Source of the DNA: Phenylobacterium sp.
GTDB taxonomy: Bacteria > Pseudomonadota > Alphaproteobacteria > Caulobacterales > Caulobacteraceae
DNA: 64,000 nt
Assembly: GCF_030679875.1 (NCBI RefSeq)
Contig: NZ_JAUXSP010000029.1
Location: 62,001-126,000, forward strand
Direction: 5' to 3'
The notes under the pieces are model-generated. The model worked only from the letters and a program-made list of their open reading frames with translations. It was not told the DNA's origin and searched no databases. Both the position numbers and the translations under genes were made by a program. Every line of letters begins with the position of its first letter. The first letter of the stretch is position 1. Of the stretch, positions 23,780 through 34,318 are shown piece after piece.

Positions 23780-24871
23780 ATGTCGCCCTGGCCAGACCGC
23801 CGCATCCTCGACCTGTTCGGCCTCGACCTTCCCATCCTGCAAGCCCCCATGGCCGGCGCGTCTGGGCTGGATCTGGCGCTGGCCGTCAGCGGGGCTGGGG
23901 GGCTGGGCGCCCTGCCCTGCGCCCTGCTCACCCCTGACCAGGTCCGGCGCCAGGGGGCCGATTACCGCCAGGCCACGACGAATCCGCTGAATCTCAACTT
24001 CTTCTGCCACCGACCGGCAGAACCAGAGCCCGCCGCGCAGGCGGCGTGGCGAGAGCGGCTGGCGCCCTATTATCGCGAGCTGGGTCGTGATCCTTTAGCC
24101 CCGACCGCTGGCGCCTCCCGGGCGCCGTTTGACGAAGCCTATTGCGACGCGGTGGAGGCGATCAGTCCAGAGGTGGTGAGCTTTCACTTTGGTCTGCCGG
24201 AGCCCGGTCTTCTGGGCAGGGTCAAGGCGACGGGCGCAAGGGTGATCAGCTCTGCGACCACCGTCGCTGAGGCGGTCTGGCTGGCCGAACGTGGCTGCGA
24301 CGCCGTGATCGCCATGGGCTATGAGGCCGGCGGCCACAGGGGGAGTTTCCTGACGCGCGACATGAGCGCTCAACCGGGCCTGATGGCCTTGCTGCCTCAG
24401 GTGGTCGATGCGGTAGAGGTCCCGGTCATCGCAGCCGGCGGCGTCGCCGACGGGCGCGGGATCGCCGCAGCCTTCGCGCTGGGGGCTGCGGCGGTGCAGC
24501 TGGGCACGGCCTACCTGCCCTGCCCGCAGTCACTGATCCCCGACTTTCATCGTCAGGCCCTGACGCGCGCCACTGACGATGGGACCGCCTTGACCAATCT
24601 GTTCACAGGCCGCCCCGCCCGAGGCCTGTTCAACCGGCTCATGCGAGAGATCGGACCCTTGTCACCGGATGCTCCGGCCTTCCCGACGGCGGCGGCGGCC
24701 CTCGGGCCCCTGAGAGCCGAAAGCCCGACCCCTGAGGACTTCACCAGTCTGTGGGCTGGTCAGGCCGCGCCCCTCGCCCACCCTGCCGACGCGGGGGAGC
24801 TGACCCGTCGCCTGGGCCAGGACGCCCTCGCCTGTTTGATGCGGCTCAGCGGAAGGCCGGACCCGGCTTAA
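23780..24871 (+). CDS. Nitronate monooxygenase family protein
   Basis: The 363-residue TIM-barrel flavoprotein oxidises alkyl nitronates (older name 2-nitropropane dioxygenase). Key motifs: LPILQAPMAGASGLDLALAVSGAGGLGALPCALL, the catalytic region AMGYEAGGHRGSF, and the FMN-phosphate site VPVIAAGGVADGRGIAAAFALGAAAVQLGTAYL. I chose the ATG at 23780 (AAAGG upstream); the frame opens earlier at 23696. Its 3' end overlaps the tail of the DUF2892 gene on the other strand by 26 bases, so the two convergent genes share terminal DNA. It may detoxify nitro compounds. Confidence 0.93.
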   Translation: MSPWPDRRILDLFGLDLPILQAPMAGASGLDLALAVSGAGGLGALPCALLTPDQVRRQGADYRQATTNPLNLNFFCHRPAEPEPAAQAAWRERLAPYYRELGRDPLAPTAGASRAPFDEAYCDAVEAISPEVVSFHFGLPEPGLLGRVKATGARVISSATTVAEAVWLAERGCDAVIAMGYEAGGHRGSFLTRDMSAQPGLMALLPQVVDAVEVPVIAAGGVADGRGIAAAFALGAAAVQLGTAYLPCPQSLIPDFHRQALTRATDDGTALTNLFTGRPARGLFNRLMREIGPLSPDAPAFPTAAAALGPLRAESPTPEDFTSLWAGQAAPLAHPADAGELTRRLGQDALACLMRLSGRPDPA

Positions 24872-25049
24872 CCCCCAGCTTCTTGAACACCATGGCCGCC
24901 GGGCAGAAGCCCGTGAAAGCCGCCTGGATCATGTTCGCGCCAGCAAAGGCGCTGAGCAGCATCCACCAGGGGCTGACAAAATGGGCCAGGGCCAAACCGG
25001 CCAGGACGACGAGGCCGGCGAAGACGAATACCGCGCGGTCGAGGGTCAT
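24846..25049 (-). CDS. DUF2892 small membrane protein
   Basis: The 67-residue protein has two membrane helices (AVFVFAGLVVLAGLALAHF and WWMLLSAFAGANMIQAAFTGF) followed by CPAAMVFKKLGVKPG, the standard DUF2892 pattern also found as the C-terminal part of the rhodanese YgaP. Its ATG overlaps the thioredoxin stop as ATGA, so it is the last gene of the sqr-trxC-DUF2892 operon. DUF2892 proteins are commonly linked with sulfane-sulfur enzymes, which fits. The precise role is unknown. Its 3' end overlaps the convergent nitronate monooxygenase gene. Confidence 0.88.
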   Translation of the reverse strand: MTLDRAVFVFAGLVVLAGLALAHFVSPWWMLLSAFAGANMIQAAFTGFCPAAMVFKKLGVKPGPAFR

Positions 25050-25516
25050 TGAGGTTGTTCCTTGTTTGAGCTGGGGCTCCTGGCGCCAGCCAGGGCCTGG
25101 TTCACCCAGGCGGTGATCTGATCTGTGGTCATGGCGCCGGCCCGTCGGGCGACTTCGCGACCGTCCTGCAGCAGGATGAGCGCCGGTATGCCTGAAACAC
25201 CCAGGGCGGCGCTGGCCTCGGGCGCCTCGTCGGCGTTGAGCTTGAGCAGGCGAACCCGAGGCTCCAGCCGTGCGGCGGCGGCGGCGAAGTGCGGCGCCAT
25301 GGATCGGCAGGGTCCGCACCAGGGCGCCCACACGTCCAGCAGGACGGCGACCCCCTGGTTGGATCGCTGATGAACCTGCAATTCCCGGGCGTCGACCTCG
25401 GTCGGCTGGCCCTGGAACAGTGCGACCCCACAGCGGCCGCACTTGGCGGCGGCGGGGTTCCGCTCGGTCGGAATTCGGTTGGCCGCCGCGCAGGCAGGAC
25501 AGACGATCTGCGTCAT
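25046..25516 (-). CDS. trxC: Thioredoxin 2 (zinc-ribbon thioredoxin)
   Basis: The 156-residue protein has an N-terminal zinc ribbon (CPACAAANRIP and CGRCG, about residues 6-30) and a thioredoxin domain with the active site WAPWCGPCRSM near residue 65 and the cis-proline at GIPALIL. It reduces disulfides and persulfides in the cytoplasm. It sits between the sulfide:quinone oxidoreductase gene (2-base gap) and the DUF2892 gene (ATGA overlap), so it is part of the sulfide operon. Release of sulfide from protein persulfides is a likely job there. Length fits TrxC. Confidence 0.95.
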   Translation of the reverse strand: MTQIVCPACAAANRIPTERNPAAAKCGRCGVALFQGQPTEVDARELQVHQRSNQGVAVLLDVWAPWCGPCRSMAPHFAAAAARLEPRVRLLKLNADEAPEASAALGVSGIPALILLQDGREVARRAGAMTTDQITAWVNQALAGARSPSSNKEQPQ

Positions 25517-25518
25517 GA

Positions 25519-26796
25519 TCAGACCTTCAATTTGCGGGCGCCAATCAGGTCCAGAGCAAGCTTCTCATAGAAGGGCGTGGCTTCCCCTCTCTTGATCTTG
25601 GAGATGAAGTACTTCTCGAACCCGATCTTCGCCAGGTGGACCCAGCGCCCCTCGGCGGCCCAGTTCAGGTTGCGGGGCGGGATCTGAGGCTGGGCGATGA
25701 AGGCCACGCCGCTGTCGCCAAAATCCGCCAGGCAGATGGCGTTCCAGGTGGCTTCATGAGTCGGTTCGGCGCCCGCCAGCAGCTCTTTCAGGTTCTCGGC
25801 GATGGCGGTGACCATGCTCTCGATCATGAAGCCGGTCTTGGGGACGCCTACAGGCACCGGGGTCTTGCCCATGGGTGGGATCGCCACGCAGACGCCCAGG
25901 GAGAAGACGTTGGGATAGGCGGGATTGCGCTGGTGCTTGTCGGCCAGGATGAAGCCCCTGGGGTTCGATAGCCCCTCCACGCCCATCACGGCGGCCACCC
26001 CGCGGAAGGCCGGCAACATCATGGCGTAGGCGAAAGGCAGATCATGCTCGGCCTTGACCGTGCCGTCGTCGGCGATCTCCTCCACCGCCATGTGGCCGTC
26101 AGTGACCTTGGCCACCTTGGCGTTGGTGATGAACCTGATGTGCCGCTGGCGCATCTCGCTTTCCAGCAGGACCTTGGTGTCGCCCACCCCGTCCAGACCA
26201 AGGTGGCCCACATAGGGCTCGGCGGTGACGAAGGTCATCGGCACCTGATCACGGATCTTGCGACGTCGCAGTTCGGTGTCGAGGATCATGGCGAACTCGT
26301 AGGCCGGCCCATAGCAGGACGCCCCCTGCACCGCCCCGACCACGATTGACCCCGGATTGCGGGCGAAGATCTCGAATGCTTCGGCGGCGCGTTCGGCGTG
26401 ATCGACATGACAGATCGACTGGGTGAAGCCTTCAGGACCAAGGCCCTCAATCTCATCGAAGGCGAGTTCCGGCCCCGTGGCGATCACCAGGTAGTCGTAG
26501 AAGAGGCTCTCGCCGTCGGCCAACTCCAGTCGGTTTTCCTGAGGATGAACCTTGCGGGTGCCGACGCCGGTGAAGCCGATCTTCTTCCTCGCCATGATCG
26601 GCGGCAGGTCCACCTCGATGGCCGCGCGGTCCCGCCAGCCGACCGCAACCCAAGGGTTTGACGGCACGAAGTGGAAGGTGTCGCCCTGGGACACCACCAT
26701 CACCTCGGCCTTGGAGCCGACGGCTTCCTTGATCTCGAAAGCGGCGACCGCTCCGCCGAGACCGGCGCCCAATATGGCTATCACTGGCTTTTTCAT
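25519..26796 (-). CDS. sqr: Sulfide:quinone oxidoreductase
   Basis: The 425-residue flavoprotein oxidises sulfide at the membrane face and passes electrons to quinone. The N-terminal FAD site is VIAILGAGLGGAVAAFEI, and LVIATGPEL near residue 105 is typical. Cysteines fall where the enzyme needs them: C129 (SICHVDH), C161 (GASCYGP) and C355 (NAICLADFG), closely matching the C128/C160/C356 set I recall for the Acidithiobacillus enzyme; C303 is extra. The C-terminal membrane-binding helices (GFEKYFISKIKRGEATPFYE) are present. I chose the ATG at 26796 giving MKKPVIAILGAG; the frame is open to 26880. It is divergent from the rhodanese gene with an operator-like site between, and heads the sqr-trxC-DUF2892 operon. 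Confidence 0.92.
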   Translation of the reverse strand: MKKPVIAILGAGLGGAVAAFEIKEAVGSKAEVMVVSQGDTFHFVPSNPWVAVGWRDRAAIEVDLPPIMARKKIGFTGVGTRKVHPQENRLELADGESLFYDYLVIATGPELAFDEIEGLGPEGFTQSICHVDHAERAAEAFEIFARNPGSIVVGAVQGASCYGPAYEFAMILDTELRRRKIRDQVPMTFVTAEPYVGHLGLDGVGDTKVLLESEMRQRHIRFITNAKVAKVTDGHMAVEEIADDGTVKAEHDLPFAYAMMLPAFRGVAAVMGVEGLSNPRGFILADKHQRNPAYPNVFSLGVCVAIPPMGKTPVPVGVPKTGFMIESMVTAIAENLKELLAGAEPTHEATWNAICLADFGDSGVAFIAQPQIPPRNLNWAAEGRWVHLAKIGFEKYFISKIKRGEATPFYEKLALDLIGARKLKV

Positions 26797-26902
26797 CGCA
26801 TGACCCTGATCTCTCCGGCGGCCCCGGCATTGATCACCGTCAAGGCGGCGCCGGTCATGTGGCCCCAGTTTCGATGTCACTTGAATGGGCCGCTGAAATC
26901 TT

Positions 26903-26924
26903 TATATGCGTACTTGCGAATATA
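26903..26924. promoter_or_regulatory. 22-bp dyad, site 1 of the sulfide regulon operator
   Basis: TATATGCG-N5-GCGAATATA is a near-palindrome 35 bases before the rhodanese start and 106 bases before the sqr start. A copy with 16 of 17 identical non-spacer bases lies, inverted, at 33412-33433. AT-rich dyads of this size are what BigR/SqrR-type ArsR repressors bind. Confidence 0.7.
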
Positions 26925-26958
26925 CAATGGTTTTCATGATAGGCCGGAGAGACGCCAG

Positions 26959-27312
26959 ATGACCCCCGCCACCGACCTTCGTCCCGCGCATGTGCGCGAC
27001 AGCCTTGCCGCCCGCCAGATCGTGCTCATCGATGTGCGTGAGCCCGCCGAGTATGCCGCCGAGCGCATCCACGGGGCGCTGAACTACCCCCTGTCGACCT
27101 TTGACCCCGACGCCCTTCCCGCGGGCGGGCCCCGCGCCATCGTCCTGCAGTGTGGCTCCGGCAAGCGTTCGGCGATGGCCATGGATCTATGCCGCAAGGC
27201 GGGAGTCGAGATCGCTGGCCACCTGGACGGCGGCATCGGGGCCTGGCGCGCGGCCGACCTGCCCATCGTCCGCATCGACCCGGCCACCGGCGCCGTCCGC
27301 GACGCTCGCTGA
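26959..27312 (+). CDS. Rhodanese-like sulfurtransferase
   Basis: The 117-residue single-domain rhodanese moves sulfane sulfur between thiols, for example from persulfide to an acceptor. It has the family marks IDVREPAEYAAERIHGALNYPL and the active-site loop VLQCGSGKRSAMAM with the catalytic cysteine near residue 70, then LDGGIGAWRAADLP. The frame is open further upstream (from 26671), but the ATG at 26959 has GGAGA nearby and gives the normal domain start. It is the first gene of the plus-strand operon rhodanese-MFP-RND-ArsR and is divergent from sqr, with operator site 1 between. Confidence 0.93.
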   Translation: MTPATDLRPAHVRDSLAARQIVLIDVREPAEYAAERIHGALNYPLSTFDPDALPAGGPRAIVLQCGSGKRSAMAMDLCRKAGVEIAGHLDGGIGAWRAADLPIVRIDPATGAVRDAR

Positions 27313-27332
27313 ACCCCAGGAAGAAGAAGCCC

Positions 27333-28382
27333 ATGCGCCCCCTGCTGACCGCGAGCCTCCTGGCCATCACCCTTGGGGCCCTGTCCCTTGGCGTCGGCGC
27401 CTGCTCGGAAACGGCCGCGCCGCCGCCGCCAGCAACGACCGCGGCCCAGGGCGAGCGGCTGACCCTTCGCGCTCAGCCGGTGGACGACCTCAAGCCCGTG
27501 GCCGCCAGCGTGGTCACCCGGAACATGGCTGAGGCCCGGGCTCGGATCGGCGGCACGCTCACTGAGCTTCGGGTGCGTGAGGGTGATCAGGTCCAGAAGG
27601 GCCAGCTGATTGGCAAGGTGTCCGACCAGCGGCTGAACCTGGAGACCACAGCCTTCGAGGCCCAGGCCGCCGCCGCCGCCGCTGAAGCCGCAAGAGCATC
27701 GGCCGAGCTGTCGCGGGTGCAGGTGCTCTATGACAAGGGCTTCTACGCCAAGGCGCGGCTGGAACAGGCCCAGGCTGGCGCCCGCGCCGCTGAGAGCATG
27801 GCCGCCGCAGCCCGAGCCCAGCGCGCCGCCAGCGCCGAGATGGGATCTCAGGGGGCGATCCTGGCTCCCTCCTCTGGCCGGGTGGTGCGGGCAGATGTCC
27901 CGGCCGGTTCGGTCGTCGCAGGTGGGCAGTCGGTGGCGACGATCACCTCTGGCGAGCCGTTGCTGCGCGTCGAGCTGCCCGAGGGCCAGGCTCGCGCCCT
28001 GAAGGTCGGGGACCAGGCCCCGGTCTCCGCCGGCGACCTCCCGGGTCTGGCGGCCTTTGGGACCGTGGTCCAGGTCTACCCTTCCGTCACCGGCGGCCAG
28101 GTGACCGCCGACCTTAGGGTCGAGGGCCTGCGCGCCGACCTGATCGGCCAGCGGGTTCGGGTGCAGGTCAAGGTGGGCGAACGCGAGGCCCTTGTGGTTC
28201 CTGACGCCTATGTGGAGACGCGGTTCGGCCTGGACTTCGTCCGGATCGTGGGGCCTGACGGCCAGGCCCGGGAGGTCGCCGTGCAGGCCACGCCGGCGCC
28301 CACGCCAGGCCAGATTGAAATCCTGTCCGGCGCCCGGGCGGGGGATGTCCTGCTGGCGTCGACCCAGGGAGCGGCCCGATGA
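27333..28382 (+). CDS. RND efflux membrane-fusion lipoprotein
   Basis: The 349-residue protein is a periplasmic adaptor. It starts with a lipoprotein signal (LLAITLGALSLGVGAC, lipid on Cys24), then a barrel-lipoyl part GGTLTELRVREGDQVQKGQLIGKV, a coiled-coil hairpin rich in Ala/Arg (about 100-175), the second lipoyl half APSSGRVVRADVPAGSVVAGGQSVATI, and a beta-barrel. It starts 20 bases after the rhodanese stop with AGGAAG, and its end overlaps the RND pump gene as ATGA. Inclusion between rhodanese and ArsR suggests export of a sulfur compound or of toxic electrophiles; the substrate is not deducible. Confidence 0.92.
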   Translation: MRPLLTASLLAITLGALSLGVGACSETAAPPPPATTAAQGERLTLRAQPVDDLKPVAASVVTRNMAEARARIGGTLTELRVREGDQVQKGQLIGKVSDQRLNLETTAFEAQAAAAAAEAARASAELSRVQVLYDKGFYAKARLEQAQAGARAAESMAAAARAQRAASAEMGSQGAILAPSSGRVVRADVPAGSVVAGGQSVATITSGEPLLRVELPEGQARALKVGDQAPVSAGDLPGLAAFGTVVQVYPSVTGGQVTADLRVEGLRADLIGQRVRVQVKVGEREALVVPDAYVETRFGLDFVRIVGPDGQAREVAVQATPAPTPGQIEILSGARAGDVLLASTQGAAR

Positions 28383-31300
28383 ACCTGGGCATCTCGGGAC
28401 GCCTGACACAGGCCACCATTCATTCGCCCCTGACGCCCCTGGCCCTGTTGGCGGCCATCGCGGTAGGGCTGATGGCCCTGATCTCAATTCCACGCGAGGA
28501 GGAGCCGCAGATCAGCGTCCCCATGGTCGATATCATGGTGGCGACCCCTGGCCTGCGGGCGGCCGACGCCGCGGAGCTGGTGGCCAAGCCGCTGGAGACC
28601 ATCGTCAAGTCCATCGATACGGTGGATCACGTCTATACCCAGGTGCAGGACGATCAGGTCCTGGTCACCGCCCGCTTCGATGTGGGCGAGGCCCCGGAGG
28701 ACGCCGCCGTCCGGGTCCACGAAAAGGTTCGCGCCAACTACGACCAGATTCCCGTCGGCATCCCCGAGCCGATGATCGTCACCCGGGGGATCAACGATGT
28801 CCCAGCCGTGGTCCTGACCCTGACGCCCACGCCAGAGATGGCTGAGCGCTGGTCCGACCAGGCCCTCTATGACGTCGCGCTTAAGCTGCGCACCGAGGTG
28901 GCCAAGGTCGAGGATGTCGGCCTGACCTTCATCGTCGGGGGCCGGCCTGACGAAATCCGTATTGAACCCGACCCCGAGCGGTTGAACCTGCGCGGGGTTC
29001 CCCTGGGTGGCGTGATCGAGGCTGTGCGCCAGGCCAATCTCAGCTTTCCCGCCGGCGCCATACGCCAGAACGGCCAGGCCGTTGAGGTCACCGCCGGCCG
29101 CACGCTGTCGAGCGCCCAGGAGGTGGGTCTGCTCAGCGTCCCCTCGGTCAAGGGCGAGCCGGTCTATGTCCGCGACGTGGCCAACGTCGTGCAGGCGCCG
29201 CGGGAGGACCAGGCCCGGGTCTGGCGTCACAGCCGCACCGCTGAGGGCTGGACCCAGGCGCCGGCCGTCAGCCTGGCCATCGCCAAGCGCCAGGGCGCCA
29301 ACGCCGTGGTGGTCTCAGACCACATTCTGGAGCGGGTGGAGAGCCTGCGCGGGACCTTGATCCCCGAGGGGCTGGAGGTCGCCGTCAGCCGCGACTACGG
29401 CGAGAGCGCCAACGAGAAGGCCAATGAGCTGCTCTTCCACCTGGGGCTGGCCACCGTCTCCATCGTCATCCTGATCGGCCTGGCCATTGGCTGGCGGGAG
29501 GCCGGCGTCACCGCGGTGGTCATTCCCACCACCATCCTGCTGACCCTCTTCGCCTCGAACCTGATGGGCTACACTATCAACCGGGTCAGCCTGTTCGCCC
29601 TGATCTTCTCCATCGGCATCCTGGTCGACGACGCCATCGTCATGATCGAAAACATCGCCCGGCACTGGGCGATGAAGGACGGCCGCACCCCCACCCAGGC
29701 GGCCATCGAGGCCGTGGCTGAAGTGGGCAATCCCACCGTCGTGGCGACCCTGACTGTCGTGGCCGCCCTGCTGCCCATGCTGTTCGTCTCAGGGCTCATG
29801 GGCCCCTACATGGCGCCGATCCCGGTCAACGCCTCGGCGGCCATGGTCTTCTCCTTCTTTGTGGCCGTGGTCATCGCGCCCTGGCTGATGGTCCGCTTCG
29901 CCCGCCAGTCCCTGGCCGAGGGACAGGGGCATGGGCATGGGCATGACGCGGGCGGCGGTCGTCTGGGCGGGGCCTACCGCGCCCTGGCCAGCCGGGTGAT
30001 CGCCAGCCGGCGCAGCGCCTGGATCTTCCTGGGCGCCGTCGGCCTGGCGACCCTGTTGTCCATGAGCATGTTCGCCACCAAGACGGTGACGGTGAAGCTG
30101 CTGCCCTTCGACAACAAGTCAGAGCTGCAGGTGGTCCTCGATCTGCCCGAGGGCGCCAGTCTGGAGACCACCGAGCGGACCCTGGCGGCGGCGGCCGAGA
30201 TCGCCCGATCAATCCCCGAGGTCATGGCCATAGAGGCCTATGCCGGCACGGCCTCGCCTTTCAATTTCAACGGTCTGGTGCGCCACTACTACCTGCGCGA
30301 ACGCCCGGAGATGGGCGACCTGTCCATCACCCTTTCCCACAAGGGCGAGCGCAAACGCGCCAGCCACGCCATCGCCCTGGACCTGCGTGAACGGCTCACG
30401 GACCTGCCCCTGCCCAACGGCGGTTCGGTGAAGGTGGTCGAGGCGCCGCCAGGCCCGCCGGTCATGGCCACCCTGCTGGCCGAGATCTACGGCCCTGACG
30501 CCGAGACCCGGCGCGCCGTGGCCGCCGAGGTGAAGGGACTGTTCCAGTCGATCCCCTACATCGTCGATGTCGACGACTCCTATGGCGAGCCCCGCCCCCG
30601 TTTGCGCCTGACGCCAGCCCGCGACACCCTGGAGCATCTGGGCGTGTCAGAGGGCGAGGTGATGAGCTCAATCGGGGCGGTCTTGGGCGGCGGGCCGGTG
30701 GGCTACGCCCATCGCGGCGAGGGACGCATGCCCCTGGAAATTTCCGTTCGGCTGCCCCAGTCCGACCGAACCTGGGGTGAACGCCTGGCCGCCACGCCGG
30801 TGGCGGTGTCAGAGACCGCAGGCGGCCGACGGCTGGTGGAGCTGGGCGAGGTGGTCGAGGCCACATCCGAATTCGGATCTCATATGATCTATCGCCGGGA
30901 CGGTCGGGACGCTGAAATGGTCACCGCCGAACTGGCCGGCCAGTACGAGGCGCCAATCTACGGCATGATGGCCGTCGGCGACGCCATCGACGCCCATGAC
31001 TGGGGCGACCTTCCCAAGCCCGTGGTCCGTCTGAATGGCCAGCCCAGCGATGAGAGCACCCCGACCCTTCTGTGGGACGGTGAATGGGAGATCACCTGGG
31101 TCACCTTCCGCGACATGGGGGCGGCCTTCGCCGTGGCGATCCTGGGGATCTATGTCCTGGTGGTCGCCCAGTTCAAAAGCTTCCGCCTGCCCCTGGTGAT
31201 CCTGACGCCCATACCCCTGACCCTGGTCGGGATCGTCATCGGCCACATCATCTTCGGCGCGCCCTTCTCGGCCACCTCAATGATCGGCTTCATCGCGCTC

Positions 31301-31618
31301 GCCGGGATCATTGTGCGGAATTCGATCCTGCTGGTGGACTTCATCAGACACGCCCAGACCGGGGATCGACCCCTGCGGGACGTGCTGTTGGAGGCGGGCT
31401 CGATCCGGTTCAAGCCCATCGTCCTGACCGCCGCCGCGGCGATGATCGGCGCCGCGGTGATCCTGTTCGACCCCATCTTCCAGGGGCTGGCCATCTCGCT
31501 GCTGTTTGGCCTGGCCTCATCGACCCTGCTGACCGTGCTGGTCATACCGGCCATCTATGTGGTTCTGAGAGATGACGGACGACCGGCCACCCGCCATGAC
31601 GCTGTCACGGCAGCCTAA
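28379..31618 (+). CDS. RND efflux pump permease (AcrB family)
   Basis: The 1079-residue inner-membrane proton-driven pump has the two-fold repeated 6-helix arrangement with large periplasmic loops. TM4 carries the proton-relay aspartates in SIGILVDDAIVMIENIARHW (about residue 417), and the second half ends with FIALAGIIVRNSILLVDFI. Around residue 516, in the loop between TM6 and TM7, is GHGHGHDAGGG, an unusual His-rich patch. It is coupled to the adaptor gene by ATGA and precedes the ArsR gene by 20 bases. The outer-membrane channel is not encoded nearby; the TolC-family gene at 6590 is a candidate. Confidence 0.94.
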   Translation: MNLGISGRLTQATIHSPLTPLALLAAIAVGLMALISIPREEEPQISVPMVDIMVATPGLRAADAAELVAKPLETIVKSIDTVDHVYTQVQDDQVLVTARFDVGEAPEDAAVRVHEKVRANYDQIPVGIPEPMIVTRGINDVPAVVLTLTPTPEMAERWSDQALYDVALKLRTEVAKVEDVGLTFIVGGRPDEIRIEPDPERLNLRGVPLGGVIEAVRQANLSFPAGAIRQNGQAVEVTAGRTLSSAQEVGLLSVPSVKGEPVYVRDVANVVQAPREDQARVWRHSRTAEGWTQAPAVSLAIAKRQGANAVVVSDHILERVESLRGTLIPEGLEVAVSRDYGESANEKANELLFHLGLATVSIVILIGLAIGWREAGVTAVVIPTTILLTLFASNLMGYTINRVSLFALIFSIGILVDDAIVMIENIARHWAMKDGRTPTQAAIEAVAEVGNPTVVATLTVVAALLPMLFVSGLMGPYMAPIPVNASAAMVFSFFVAVVIAPWLMVRFARQSLAEGQGHGHGHDAGGGRLGGAYRALASRVIASRRSAWIFLGAVGLATLLSMSMFATKTVTVKLLPFDNKSELQVVLDLPEGASLETTERTLAAAAEIARSIPEVMAIEAYAGTASPFNFNGLVRHYYLRERPEMGDLSITLSHKGERKRASHAIALDLRERLTDLPLPNGGSVKVVEAPPGPPVMATLLAEIYGPDAETRRAVAAEVKGLFQSIPYIVDVDDSYGEPRPRLRLTPARDTLEHLGVSEGEVMSSIGAVLGGGPVGYAHRGEGRMPLEISVRLPQSDRTWGERLAATPVAVSETAGGRRLVELGEVVEATSEFGSHMIYRRDGRDAEMVTAELAGQYEAPIYGMMAVGDAIDAHDWGDLPKPVVRLNGQPSDESTPTLLWDGEWEITWVTFRDMGAAFAVAILGIYVLVVAQFKSFRLPLVILTPIPLTLVGIVIGHIIFGAPFSATSMIGFIALAGIIVRNSILLVDFIRHAQTGDRPLRDVLLEAGSIRFKPIVLTAAAAMIGAAVILFDPIFQGLAISLLFGLASSTLLTVLVIPAIYVVLRDDGRPATRHDAVTAA

Positions 31619-31638
31619 CCGAACCTGGACCTGTGAGC

Positions 31639-31992
31639 ATGAGCAAGGCCCCCCTCAACGCCGTCGTCGCCCAGATGCCCGACCCGTCCGAGCTGGCGGC
31701 CCTGGAGGCCAGCGCCGCAGCAGCCGCCCGGCTGATGAAACTCATGTCCAGCGAGCAGCGGCTGATCATCCTCTGTCGGCTGGGGGACGGCGAGTGTTCG
31801 GTGGGCGACCTGGCCCAACATGTGGGTCTGGCCCAGTCAGCCGCCTCCCAGCACCTGGCCAAGCTGCGGGCCGAAGGGGTGGTCGGCACGCGGCGTGAGG
31901 GCCAGACTATCTTCTACCGCCTGATTGACCCCGCCGCGGCCCGGGTGATCGACACCCTGTGCGACATCTATCGCGGCAAGCCTGCGGCCTGA
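31639..31992 (+). CDS. ArsR-family repressor, BigR/SqrR-like
   Basis: The 117-residue winged-helix repressor aligns with BigR/SqrR, the sulfide/persulfide sensors: ARLMKLMSSEQRLIILCRLGDGECSVGDLAQHVGLAQSAASQHLAKLRAEGVVGTRREGQTIFYRL. Cysteines are C46 (same place as BigR Cys42), C53, and C108 in DTLCDIYRG. In BigR the second redox Cys is one helical turn later; here that position is an arginine. Persulfide would oxidise the dithiol and release the operator. It ends the rhodanese-RND operon, and probably binds both dyads (26903, 33412). Start at ATG 31639; a GTG at 31633 is also possible. Confidence 0.9.
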   Translation: MSKAPLNAVVAQMPDPSELAALEASAAAAARLMKLMSSEQRLIILCRLGDGECSVGDLAQHVGLAQSAASQHLAKLRAEGVVGTRREGQTIFYRLIDPAAARVIDTLCDIYRGKPAA

Positions 31993-31996
31993 CCGA

Positions 31997-32599
31997 TCAG
32001 CCCGGCTTGCGGGCGACCAGATCGATCAGCGCTGACGGACCGCTGTGGCCCGCGCCCTCTTCGATCACCGCGTCATAGGCGGCCAGGTCCACGATCTCGA
32101 AGTCTGCAAAGGCCGTGCGCAGCATCTCCTCGGTGTAGAGGTTCTCCGGGGTCCTTGGGCCGCCGGTGCCATAGGCGATCTGCTCGGGACGATAGCCCTC
32201 CAGCAGCACGAGCCCGCCGGGCTTCAGGGCGCGTTTCATCCCGTCAAACATCTGGGACCGCAGATCGGGGCCGGCGAACTGAATGAAGATCGCCGCCACG
32301 ATGTCGAACTTCGCCTTGGGCCAGTCCCAGCTCGCCAGGTCCACATGCTGAAGCTCGAGGCTGACCCCGCGAGCCTGCGCCAGGCGCGCGGCTTTGACCT
32401 GGGCCACGGCGGAGCCGTCGGCTGAGAGCACCGACAGTCCCTGCTGCGCCAGCCAAACGCCATTGCGGCCCTCCCCGTCGGCTACAGCCAGAGCGCTCTG
32501 GCCCGGCGCCAACCGGTGGGCCTGCCGGGCGAGGAAGGCGTTGGGCGCCTCGCCGAACAGGTAGGTCTCGCCCTGATAGCGTTCGTCCCAGAAACTCAT
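31997..32599 (-). CDS. SAM-dependent methyltransferase (TehB/thiopurine-type fold)
   Basis: The 200-residue protein is a class I methyltransferase with an opening FWDERYQGETYLFGEAPNAFLARQAH, the SAM site ALAVADGEGRNGVWLAQQGLSVLSADGSAVA, and late motifs FDIVAAIFIQFAGPDLR and LKPGGLVLLEGYRPEQI. Related proteins methylate small thiols, selenium or tellurium compounds. The ATG overlaps the TauE gene stop as ATGA, so the two are co-translated from the promoter at 33376-33457, which carries operator site 2. Within a sulfide island, methylation of sulfide or a thiol is plausible but unproven. The frame is open further upstream over the TauE gene, but that part is not coding. Confidence 0.85.
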   Translation of the reverse strand: MSFWDERYQGETYLFGEAPNAFLARQAHRLAPGQSALAVADGEGRNGVWLAQQGLSVLSADGSAVAQVKAARLAQARGVSLELQHVDLASWDWPKAKFDIVAAIFIQFAGPDLRSQMFDGMKRALKPGGLVLLEGYRPEQIAYGTGGPRTPENLYTEEMLRTAFADFEIVDLAAYDAVIEEGAGHSGPSALIDLVARKPG

Positions 32600-33375
32600 C
32601 CGACAACTCCCATCCAGGCCACATAGGCCGCCACGATCAGAACCAGACCCGCAAACAGGCGCCGCGCCAGGAGGGCGCGATCCGCCAGCAGGCCCGCCGC
32701 CCTCATGCCAAGCCAGCCGCCGGCCGTGCCCCCGGCGATGAAAAGCCCCGCGACCGGCCAGACCACCAGCCCTGAAAAGGCGTAGTTGGCCGAGGTGGCG
32801 GCGCCAAACAGGCTGACGGACAACAGGGAAGAGGCCGCGGCGTTGGCCAGGGTCATGCCGCTCGCCGCCATCAGGCCGGGCACGATCAGGAACCCGCCGC
32901 CAATGCCGAAAAATCCGGCCGCGAAACCTGTCGCCAGGCCGATCGGGGCCAGGCGCAGGGTCATGGCCCAGGAGATATGGGCCGACGGGTCGCCGGCGTC
33001 CTTCGGCTTTCGCATCATCGACAGGGCGATGGCCGCCATGGCCAGGGCGAAGAGCACGAGCAGTTGCTGGCCGTCCACCTGCTTGGCGAGGCTGGAGCCC
33101 CCCAGAGCGCCCGCCAGCCCCGCAGCGGCGAACACACTGGCGCAGGGCCACTTCACCCGTCCGCCGCGGGCATGGCCGATGAGGTTGATCGCCGCGTTGA
33201 CCGCCACAGCCGCAGCCGAGGTGCCGATGGCCAGGTGCGTGTCGCTGATCCCCACCACATAAAGCAGAGCCGGCGTCGCCAGCACCGAGCCGCCCCCGCC
33301 GAACACCGCCAACAGAAGGCCGACCACCGCGCCGCTGAGCACCGCGGCGATCATGGCTGTGGTTGTGAGGTCCAT
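32596..33375 (-). CDS. TauE/SafE-family sulfite exporter-like permease
   Basis: The 259-residue protein has about eight membrane helices and the two repeated halves of the TauE family: AAVLSGAVVGLLLAVFGGGGSVLATPALLYVVGI at the start and GLATGFAAGFFGIGGGFLIVPGLMAASG near the middle. Members export sulfite or organosulfonates. I chose the ATG at 33375 with AGGAG about 9 bases upstream; the frame runs to 33459, but that would pass through the operator. It is divergent from the persulfide dioxygenase gene, whose product makes sulfite, so export of that sulfite is the natural role. Confidence 0.92.
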   Translation of the reverse strand: MDLTTTAMIAAVLSGAVVGLLLAVFGGGGSVLATPALLYVVGISDTHLAIGTSAAAVAVNAAINLIGHARGGRVKWPCASVFAAAGLAGALGGSSLAKQVDGQQLLVLFALAMAAIALSMMRKPKDAGDPSAHISWAMTLRLAPIGLATGFAAGFFGIGGGFLIVPGLMAASGMTLANAAASSLLSVSLFGAATSANYAFSGLVVWPVAGLFIAGGTAGGWLGMRAAGLLADRALLARRLFAGLVLIVAAYVAWMGVVG

Positions 33376-33411
33376 TTGGGGTGCTCCTGTCGTGCTTGTA
33401 GCGACGTTTGC

Positions 33412-33433
33412 TATATTAGCGATACCGCATATA
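33412..33433. promoter_or_regulatory. 22-bp dyad, site 2 of the sulfide regulon operator
   Basis: On the minus strand this reads TATATGCG-N5-GCTAATATA, identical to site 1 (26903-26924) at 16 of 17 non-spacer positions. It sits 25 bases before the persulfide dioxygenase start and 37 bases before the divergent TauE start, so one repressor could block both promoters. Confidence 0.7.
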
Positions 33434-33457: not shown

Positions 33458-34318
33458 ATGTCCGTTCAGCAGATGAGCTTCTTCCATGAGGCGACCTCGA
33501 CCGTCACCTATCTGGTCTGGGACGTGGCCACTGGCCAAGCCGCGGTCATTGATCCGGTCCTCGACTATGAGCCCAAGGGCGCGAAGATCTCCCGCGACCA
33601 GATTTCTGAGATTCTGCGCGCCCTTGAGGCCCACGGCCTGAAGCTGGCCTATATTCTGGAGACCCACGCCCATGCCGACCATCTGTCGGCCGCCGCCCGC
33701 CTGCGCCAGGCCACCGGCGCCCAGGTGGTCATTGGCGCCCATATCACTGCGGTTCAGGACTATTTCGGCAAGGTTTTCGGCGCTGAGGACGTCAGAGCCG
33801 ACGGCGCCGACTTTGACCGTCTGGTGCGCGAGGGCGACGTCCTGAGGCTTGGTGAGACGGAGATCGGCGTCCTGCATACGCCGGGGCACACGCCGGCCTG
33901 CGTCACCTATCTGATCGAGGACGCGGCCTATGTGGGCGACACCCTGTTCATGCCCGACTACGGCACCGCCCGGGCGGACTTCCCCGGCGGCGACGCCGCG
34001 ACCCTCTATCGCTCGATCCAGAAAATCCTCGCCCTGCCCCCAGAAACCAGGATCTTCGTCGGTCACGACTATCTGACAAAGGATCGCAAGACCCATGTCT
34101 GGGAAACTACGGTGGCGGCTCAGCGGGCGGAAAACGTTCATCTGCGCGATGGGGTGAGCGAGGCCGACTTTGTGGCGCGGCGCGAGGCGAGAGACGCCAC
34201 CCTGCCCCCGCCCACCCTGATCCTGCCGTCGCTGCAGGTGAACATCCGGGCTGGGGGGCTGCCGCCCCCGGAGCGCGATGGCCGAGTCTATCTTCGCCTT
34301 CCGGTGACTGAAATCTGA
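33458..34318 (+). CDS. Persulfide dioxygenase-like metallo-beta-lactamase protein
   Basis: The 286-residue protein belongs to the ETHE1/Blh glyoxalase-II-like group that oxidises glutathione persulfide to sulfite. Metal ligands are in ETHAHADH (H70, H72, D74, H75), then HTPGHTPACV (about 145-155), GDTLFMPDYG and the late VGHDY histidine. The N-terminal MSFFHEATSTVTYLVWD is typical of the bacterial Blh type, but the rhodanese-like DUF442 domain sometimes fused to it is absent. AGGAG precedes the ATG. Operator site 2 lies between this gene and the divergent TauE gene. With SQR, rhodanese and TauE it completes a sulfide-to-sulfite route. Confidence 0.9.
   Translation: MSVQQMSFFHEATSTVTYLVWDVATGQAAVIDPVLDYEPKGAKISRDQISEILRALEAHGLKLAYILETHAHADHLSAAARLRQATGAQVVIGAHITAVQDYFGKVFGAEDVRADGADFDRLVREGDVLRLGETEIGVLHTPGHTPACVTYLIEDAAYVGDTLFMPDYGTARADFPGGDAATLYRSIQKILALPPETRIFVGHDYLTKDRKTHVWETTVAAQRAENVHLRDGVSEADFVARREARDATLPPPTLILPSLQVNIRAGGLPPPERDGRVYLRLPVTEI

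Follow-up and report, generated by a model that had tools for sequence, protein, structure and literature searches.

The locus examined here is an island of sulfide oxidation genes in a 64,000-nucleotide stretch of Phenylobacterium sp. DNA (NCBI RefSeq assembly GCF_030679875.1, contig NZ_JAUXSP010000029.1, positions 62,001 to 126,000; the whole stretch is referred to as the window). The island has two divergent promoters, sqr/rhodanese and tauE/persulfide dioxygenase (pdo), each carrying a 22-bp dyad (sites 1 and 2, Table 1), and a gene for an ArsR-family repressor. It raises the question of whether a single repressor governs both promoters, and to which signal it would respond. The reading preferred here, with a probability of roughly 0.77, is that both dyads are operators of the island's one ArsR, which represses both promoters and is released by sulfane sulfur. 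The island probably represents a variant form of the BigR/SqrR-type sulfur response, in which the sensor is unusual and a switch may be inherited.

The positions of both dyads were as reported in a first-pass annotation of the same DNA, and its figure of 16 identical bases among 17 non-spacer positions (5-base spacer) was reproduced on recomputation; overall, 17 of 22 bases are the same. In 300 dinucleotide shuffles of both intergenic regions the best pair reached at most 14/17. Both sites are imperfect dyads, with self-complementary positions of 16/22 and 14/22. No third copy had been noted in the window, and a scan at 3 mismatches likewise located sites 1 and 2 only (chance expectation 0.01). 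In the window's own genome (3.5 Mb, 32 contigs) the next-best dyad places were found at 2 mismatches, at C17:38556 and C12:9114. The two-mismatch sites of C17 were considered as extra regulon members and set aside, being tandem dyads before an HTH_3 gene that look like operators of that gene itself. The region concerned (C17:38556-38631; L004 1501-1576) contains, in front of the small HTH_3 gene, two tandem, overlapping-register dyads of TATGCG type and, as a further element, TTATGCG...CGCATAA.

Conservation was assessed with the consensus WATATKYG-N6-CRMATATW, derived by visual inspection of 18 sqr/rhodanese intergenic regions including that of the window; the reversed pattern was used as control. 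The named-loci sample consisted of the best 80 of 499 relatives. 48 of the 80 loci hold sqr, and 11 of these 48 promoters overlap the regions used to build the consensus, so that the other 37 are independent. The dyad was present with ≤2 mismatches in 47 of the 48 sqr promoters, the remaining one (L186) having 5; the reversed pattern reached 2 mismatches in 7 and fell below 2 in none. Among the independent promoters 13 were exact, 14 had one mismatch (27 within 1), 9 had two and 1 had five, and the control gave three at two mismatches and none below. Across 1.15 Mb of loci around ArsR, 49 sites were located at ≤1 mismatch, corresponding to 37 sqr promoters, 11 pdo promoters and 1 rhodanese promoter (L127, on whose contig sqr was not found), with 1 site for the control.

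199 genomes of the family were scanned for the exact consensus, which gave 21 sites in 19 genomes (reversed control 1). The sites were distributed over 17 sqr promoters, one trxC/arsR promoter (L106, where sqr was not found), one tauE/pdo promoter (L093) and two sites at a divergent cydA/ABC-transporter promoter; 10 of the 19 genomes had not been used for consensus building. An ArsR match at E ≤ 1e-15 was present in 19/19 of these genomes versus 136/199 of the family genomes overall. A narrower consensus, applied to 299 genomes across the order, located 8 sites in 8 genomes (control 0). Five of these were sqr promoters (three already found in the family scan, two identical in sequence to L165 and L179), two stood beside a BigR-like arsR and a gene judged by eye to encode another RND-type permease, and one stood beside a MarR gene. 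In L226 (∼1501-1522) a perfect TATATGCG-N6-CGCATATA dyad was observed between a MarR-family gene and a methyltransferase gene assigned by eye; no sulfide island genes were found on this 3-kb piece.

These scans of genome and relatives, which the first-pass annotation had proposed among its checks, yielded a motif that is not random in the genome, is nearly confined to island promoters and keeps its position across the family. They bear directly on the explanation that the likeness of the sites arises incidentally from AT-rich core promoter elements. Both sites do lie near start codons, where core promoters would be, and a sigma-70 promoter scan gave one weak match, overlapping site 1, and no match at site 2. 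The surroundings vary, however, whereas the dyad keeps a constant spacing, and random AT-rich resemblance was rejected on the window scan, the shuffles and the reversed-pattern controls. The core-promoter explanation is largely refuted already by the genome-wide specificity and is considered extremely improbable.

The island ArsR is the sole match at E ≤ 1e-15 in its own genome, which has seven HTH_5 matches. It has the ArsR winged-helix fold, the nearest solved proteins by sequence being SqrR, HlyU, YgaV, NolR and BigR. HlyU and SqrR led the fold comparison, both at ∼44% identity; the metal sensor CzrA came close to them in Z and shares ∼24% identity. The BigR equivalog model (NCBIfam NF040642) gave 83.1 bits, below its curated cut-off of 155, and the general ArsR/SmtB model gave 85.6 bits; 14 other members of alignment A1 match NF040642. 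The proximal cysteine of characterised sensors (SqrR Cys41, BigR Cys42) is kept as Cys46 in 15/15 rows of alignment A1. The distal cysteine (SqrR Cys107, BigR Cys108) is absent from the island ArsR, where this position is Arg112, and a cysteine is found at position 108, four residues before it. The initial assignment to the BigR/SqrR type was retained for the fold and the likely operator but not for the distal cysteine of characterised sensors, in place of which another stands one helical turn earlier.

Positions were matched from sequence-match ranges, the BigR alignment itself not being printed, and Cys108 falls on BigR Trp104; according to the BigR study this residue sits between both BigR cysteines in the reduced form (PMC5823870). 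RND-linked ArsRs were counted as 59 rows adjoining an RND gene, apart from the window's own row. Cys46 is present in 59/59, and position 108 is Cys in 49, Ser in 7, Arg in 2 and Tyr in 1, the last with the canonical distal cysteine. The missing distal cysteine also speaks for an ArsR that binds both sites but senses something else, for example a metal or peroxide, as do the general ArsR/SmtB model, which scores as well as the BigR model, and the nearness in fold of metal sensors. Set against this are the genes flanking the sites, which are a sulfide oxidation set, the invariant Cys46 of the RND-linked copies, and an identity to SqrR and HlyU of nearly twice that to CzrA. Sensing of a different signal is accordingly rated as improbable.

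Site 2 bears on the preferred reading, that the island ArsR acts at both dyads. Relatives carry further ArsRs besides the RND-linked type A: type C lies between site 1 and the rhodanese gene and has the canonical distal cysteine in 23/25 (2 unaligned), and type B lies beside pdo and has a distal cysteine in 0/10 (1 unaligned). In an ArsR tree of a 59-row sample B and C each formed one group, in 98 and 100% of bootstrap trees respectively, and type A needed 3 label changes; long branches made the placement of SqrR and YgaV uncertain. In the five closest relatives site 2 reads TATATGCA-N6-CTAATATA, and its most constant part is the overlapping palindrome TTGCTATATTAGCAA. The 16/17 likeness of sites 1 and 2 is therefore partly particular to the window genome.

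33 loci hold pdo, and promoters were read in the 32 with pdo on the plus strand, L173 being left out. With a type B gene nearby, the promoter contained exact TTGCTAAWTTAGCAA in 9/9. In the window's close clade exact TTGCTATATTAGCAA was found in 8/8, with no type B gene, and no second ArsR of this type was found in the window genome. These counts favour the explanation that site 2 is for the most part a leftover operator of a type B ArsR once linked to pdo and now lost, or a palindrome for another protein, and that the island ArsR binds site 1 only. In the closest clade, however, the right arm retains the 22-bp spacing, and a single A-to-T difference creates TATATTAG, a half site of the type A dyad; TTGCTATATTAGCAA of the close clade thereby also supplies this half of the dyad, with 1 or 2 mismatches to the consensus. 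In addition, the relatives with a more distant dioxygenase have the plain dyad within 2 mismatches at the pdo promoter in 13/13. The relic or other-protein explanation of site 2 is regarded as unlikely. Tandem pairs of type A arsR genes, with no type B gene, were observed in two loci, L116 and L125, where the pdo promoter core is TTGTTAAWTTAGCAA.

With both dyads taken as operators of the island ArsR, site 2 may derive from an operator that once served another ArsR, since lost from the window genome. Comparison of the promoters suggests that type B was lost in the window lineage and its operator adopted by type A, which is one of several possible histories. A more elaborate scheme is put forward only tentatively. 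In it, the island ArsR represents a distinct sensor type whose resolving cysteine was displaced by one helical turn and now occupies the position of BigR's gating tryptophan; the dioxygenase promoter of the lost paralog was taken over through about one base change; a single repressor thereby covers functions that relatives divide among as many as three (types A, B and C); and the RND pump, together with cytochrome bd oxidase in sister species, belongs to the same regulon.

Without sulfane sulfur, an ArsR dimer would occupy both divergent promoters and block RNA polymerase. Persulfide or polysulfide would modify Cys46 and probably Cys108, and ArsR would leave the DNA. Release would allow expression of sqr-trxC-ygaP_TM, rhodanese-RND-arsR, tauE-methyltransferase and the dioxygenase gene. 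ArsR would also repress itself, because arsR ends the rhodanese gene row, and TrxC would reset ArsR. The operon limits used in this scheme, and any substrate of the RND pump, are inferred.

Coordinates are collected in Table 1. The plus-strand row leading away from site 1 comprises the rhodanese, RND adaptor, RND permease and arsR genes; the methyltransferase and tauE genes are convergent to arsR, and the dioxygenase gene diverges from tauE across site 2. The predicted operators thus adjoin the sulfide oxidation genes sqr, rhodanese, tauE and pdo, over which they would exert control. The YgaP-like membrane gene (24846-25049) overlaps the end of trxC by 4 bp. The nearest named relatives are from Phenylobacterium and other Caulobacteraceae. 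The complete gene order was found in 4 congeners (L069, L071, L072 and L073) and in part in a fifth (L070, a short contig), and looser versions in most of the other 15 loci of the same comparison.

Table 1. Predicted operators, overlapping or adjacent motifs and genes of the sulfide island, in window coordinates
Feature	Position	Strand	Remarks
Site 1, 22-bp dyad TATATGCGTACTTGCGAATATA, predicted ArsR operator, divergent sqr/rhodanese promoter	26903..26924	+	conserved as WATATKYG-N6-CRMATATW
Site 2, 22-bp dyad, minus strand TATATGCGGTATCGCTAATATA, predicted ArsR operator, divergent tauE/persulfide dioxygenase promoter	33412..33433	-	
15-bp palindrome overlapping site 2	33408..33422	.	TTGCTATATTAGCGA in window; TTGCTATATTAGCAA in close relatives; TTGCTAAWTTAGCAA in relatives with second arsR
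FNR/FixK-type box TTGATCACCGTCAA, between site 1 and sqr	26830..26843	+	
YgaP-like transmembrane protein (PF11127)	24846..25049	-	last gene of presumed sqr operon
Thioredoxin-2 (trxC-like)	25046..25516	-	2 bp after sqr; TrxC model 124.3 bits, just below cut-off 125
Sulfide:quinone reductase (sqr)	25519..26796	-	residues 6-424 align with solved sulfide-quinone reductases, best E 1.3e-143
Single-domain rhodanese	26959..27312	+	
RND periplasmic adaptor	27333..28382	+	
RND efflux permease (AcrB-type)	28379..31618	+	
ArsR-family repressor (type A)	31639..31992	+	cysteines 46, 53, 108
S-adenosylmethionine (SAM) methyltransferase	31997..32599	-	
TauE/SafE sulfite exporter	32596..33375	-	
Persulfide dioxygenase (metallo-beta-lactamase fold)	33458..34318	+	like dioxygenase half of Blh; Blh model 356.6 bits over positions 145-421, cut-off 625 not reached

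The pattern TTGAY-N4-RTCAM was present at ≤1 mismatch in 38/48 sqr promoters, 28/37 of the independent ones, and in 0/48 for the reversed control; the remaining 10/48 lacked it at this threshold. In the window's own genome TTGAT-N4-RTCAA was found at 14 distinct places (19 strand-wise matches; control 1), including places ≤300 bases before genes with NnrS, molybdenum-cofactor, MFS and heavy-metal ATPase domains. We take the box and these neighbours to fit a regulator of the FNR/FixK/NnrR kind. A low-oxygen or nitric oxide regulator of the FNR/FixK family probably also acts on the sqr side. The dyad was also located in the cydA promoter of four sister genomes, directly after an FNR-type box, with 0 mismatches in L187, 2 in L188, 0 in L189 and 1 in L190 (L103 1501-1522). 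Among 60 genus genomes searched, 13 had a cydA match; promoters were read in the 7 at ≥80% identity, and the 6 at 37-40% identity were left out. Of these 7 promoters, two had an exact dyad, one had a dyad with a single mismatch, two had dyads with two mismatches and one had a dyad with three; the last had none within four. In the window genome no cydA was found at E ≤ 1e-60.

For Caulobacter, no described persulfide-sensing ArsR and no paper on the island were found in the open-licence literature, searched with this genus name only. No earlier description of the operator in Caulobacteraceae, of the shifted cysteine or of the paralog turnover was found in that literature. For Caulobacteraceae the dyad offers an operator of sulfide control that can be tested across the family. 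The relatives provide a natural series with one to three paralogous ArsRs at the same promoters, suited to the study of repressor and operator replacement, and the shifted cysteine probes how fixed the two-cysteine sulfur bridge is.

Sulfide-responsive control of sqr and rhodanese is in print (PMC9995734), and RND linkage as such is not new, because a survey notes RND pumps near two-cysteine ArsR regulators (PMC12423496). The island resembles the SqrR system of Rhodobacter capsulatus in ArsR fold, operator spacing, predicted sqr and rhodanese targets and a putative role of thioredoxin-2 in the loop (PMC9774250, PMC9995734, PMC10044876). Relative to the deduced SqrR operator ATTC-N8-GAAT (PMC9774250) the spacing is the same and the consensus is looser (ATKY-N8-RMAT), the window sites deviating as ATGC-N8-GAAT and ATGC-N8-TAAT. 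In R. capsulatus TrxC reduces SqrR and trxC is unlinked from sqr (PMC10044876), whereas in the island trxC adjoins sqr, the distal cysteine is shifted by four residues, and an RND pump and a TauE exporter are included. In the BigR/Blh operon of Xylella and Agrobacterium a single ArsR controls its own gene together with persulfide dioxygenase and rhodanese functions, as predicted for the island, and BigR recognises the -10 region (PMC5823870); in the island these two functions belong to separate proteins encoded at different promoters, and Cys108 is reckoned to take the position of BigR Trp104. HlyU and NolR are close to the island ArsR in sequence and fold but have other targets; hlyO DNA has CTAAATTAG, resembling the type B palindrome core (PMC10509353), a similarity to the palindrome that overlaps site 2 rather than to the dyad. 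YgaV/YgaP of Escherichia coli shares the ArsR group and the combination of rhodanese and YgaP-like membrane domain, and expression of cydAB is raised in a ygaV mutant (PMC9774250). The island differs in that the cyd site occurs in sister genomes only and in that one gene encodes the rhodanese and another the membrane domain; with site 1 between them, the two genes look like E. coli YgaP divided into its parts.

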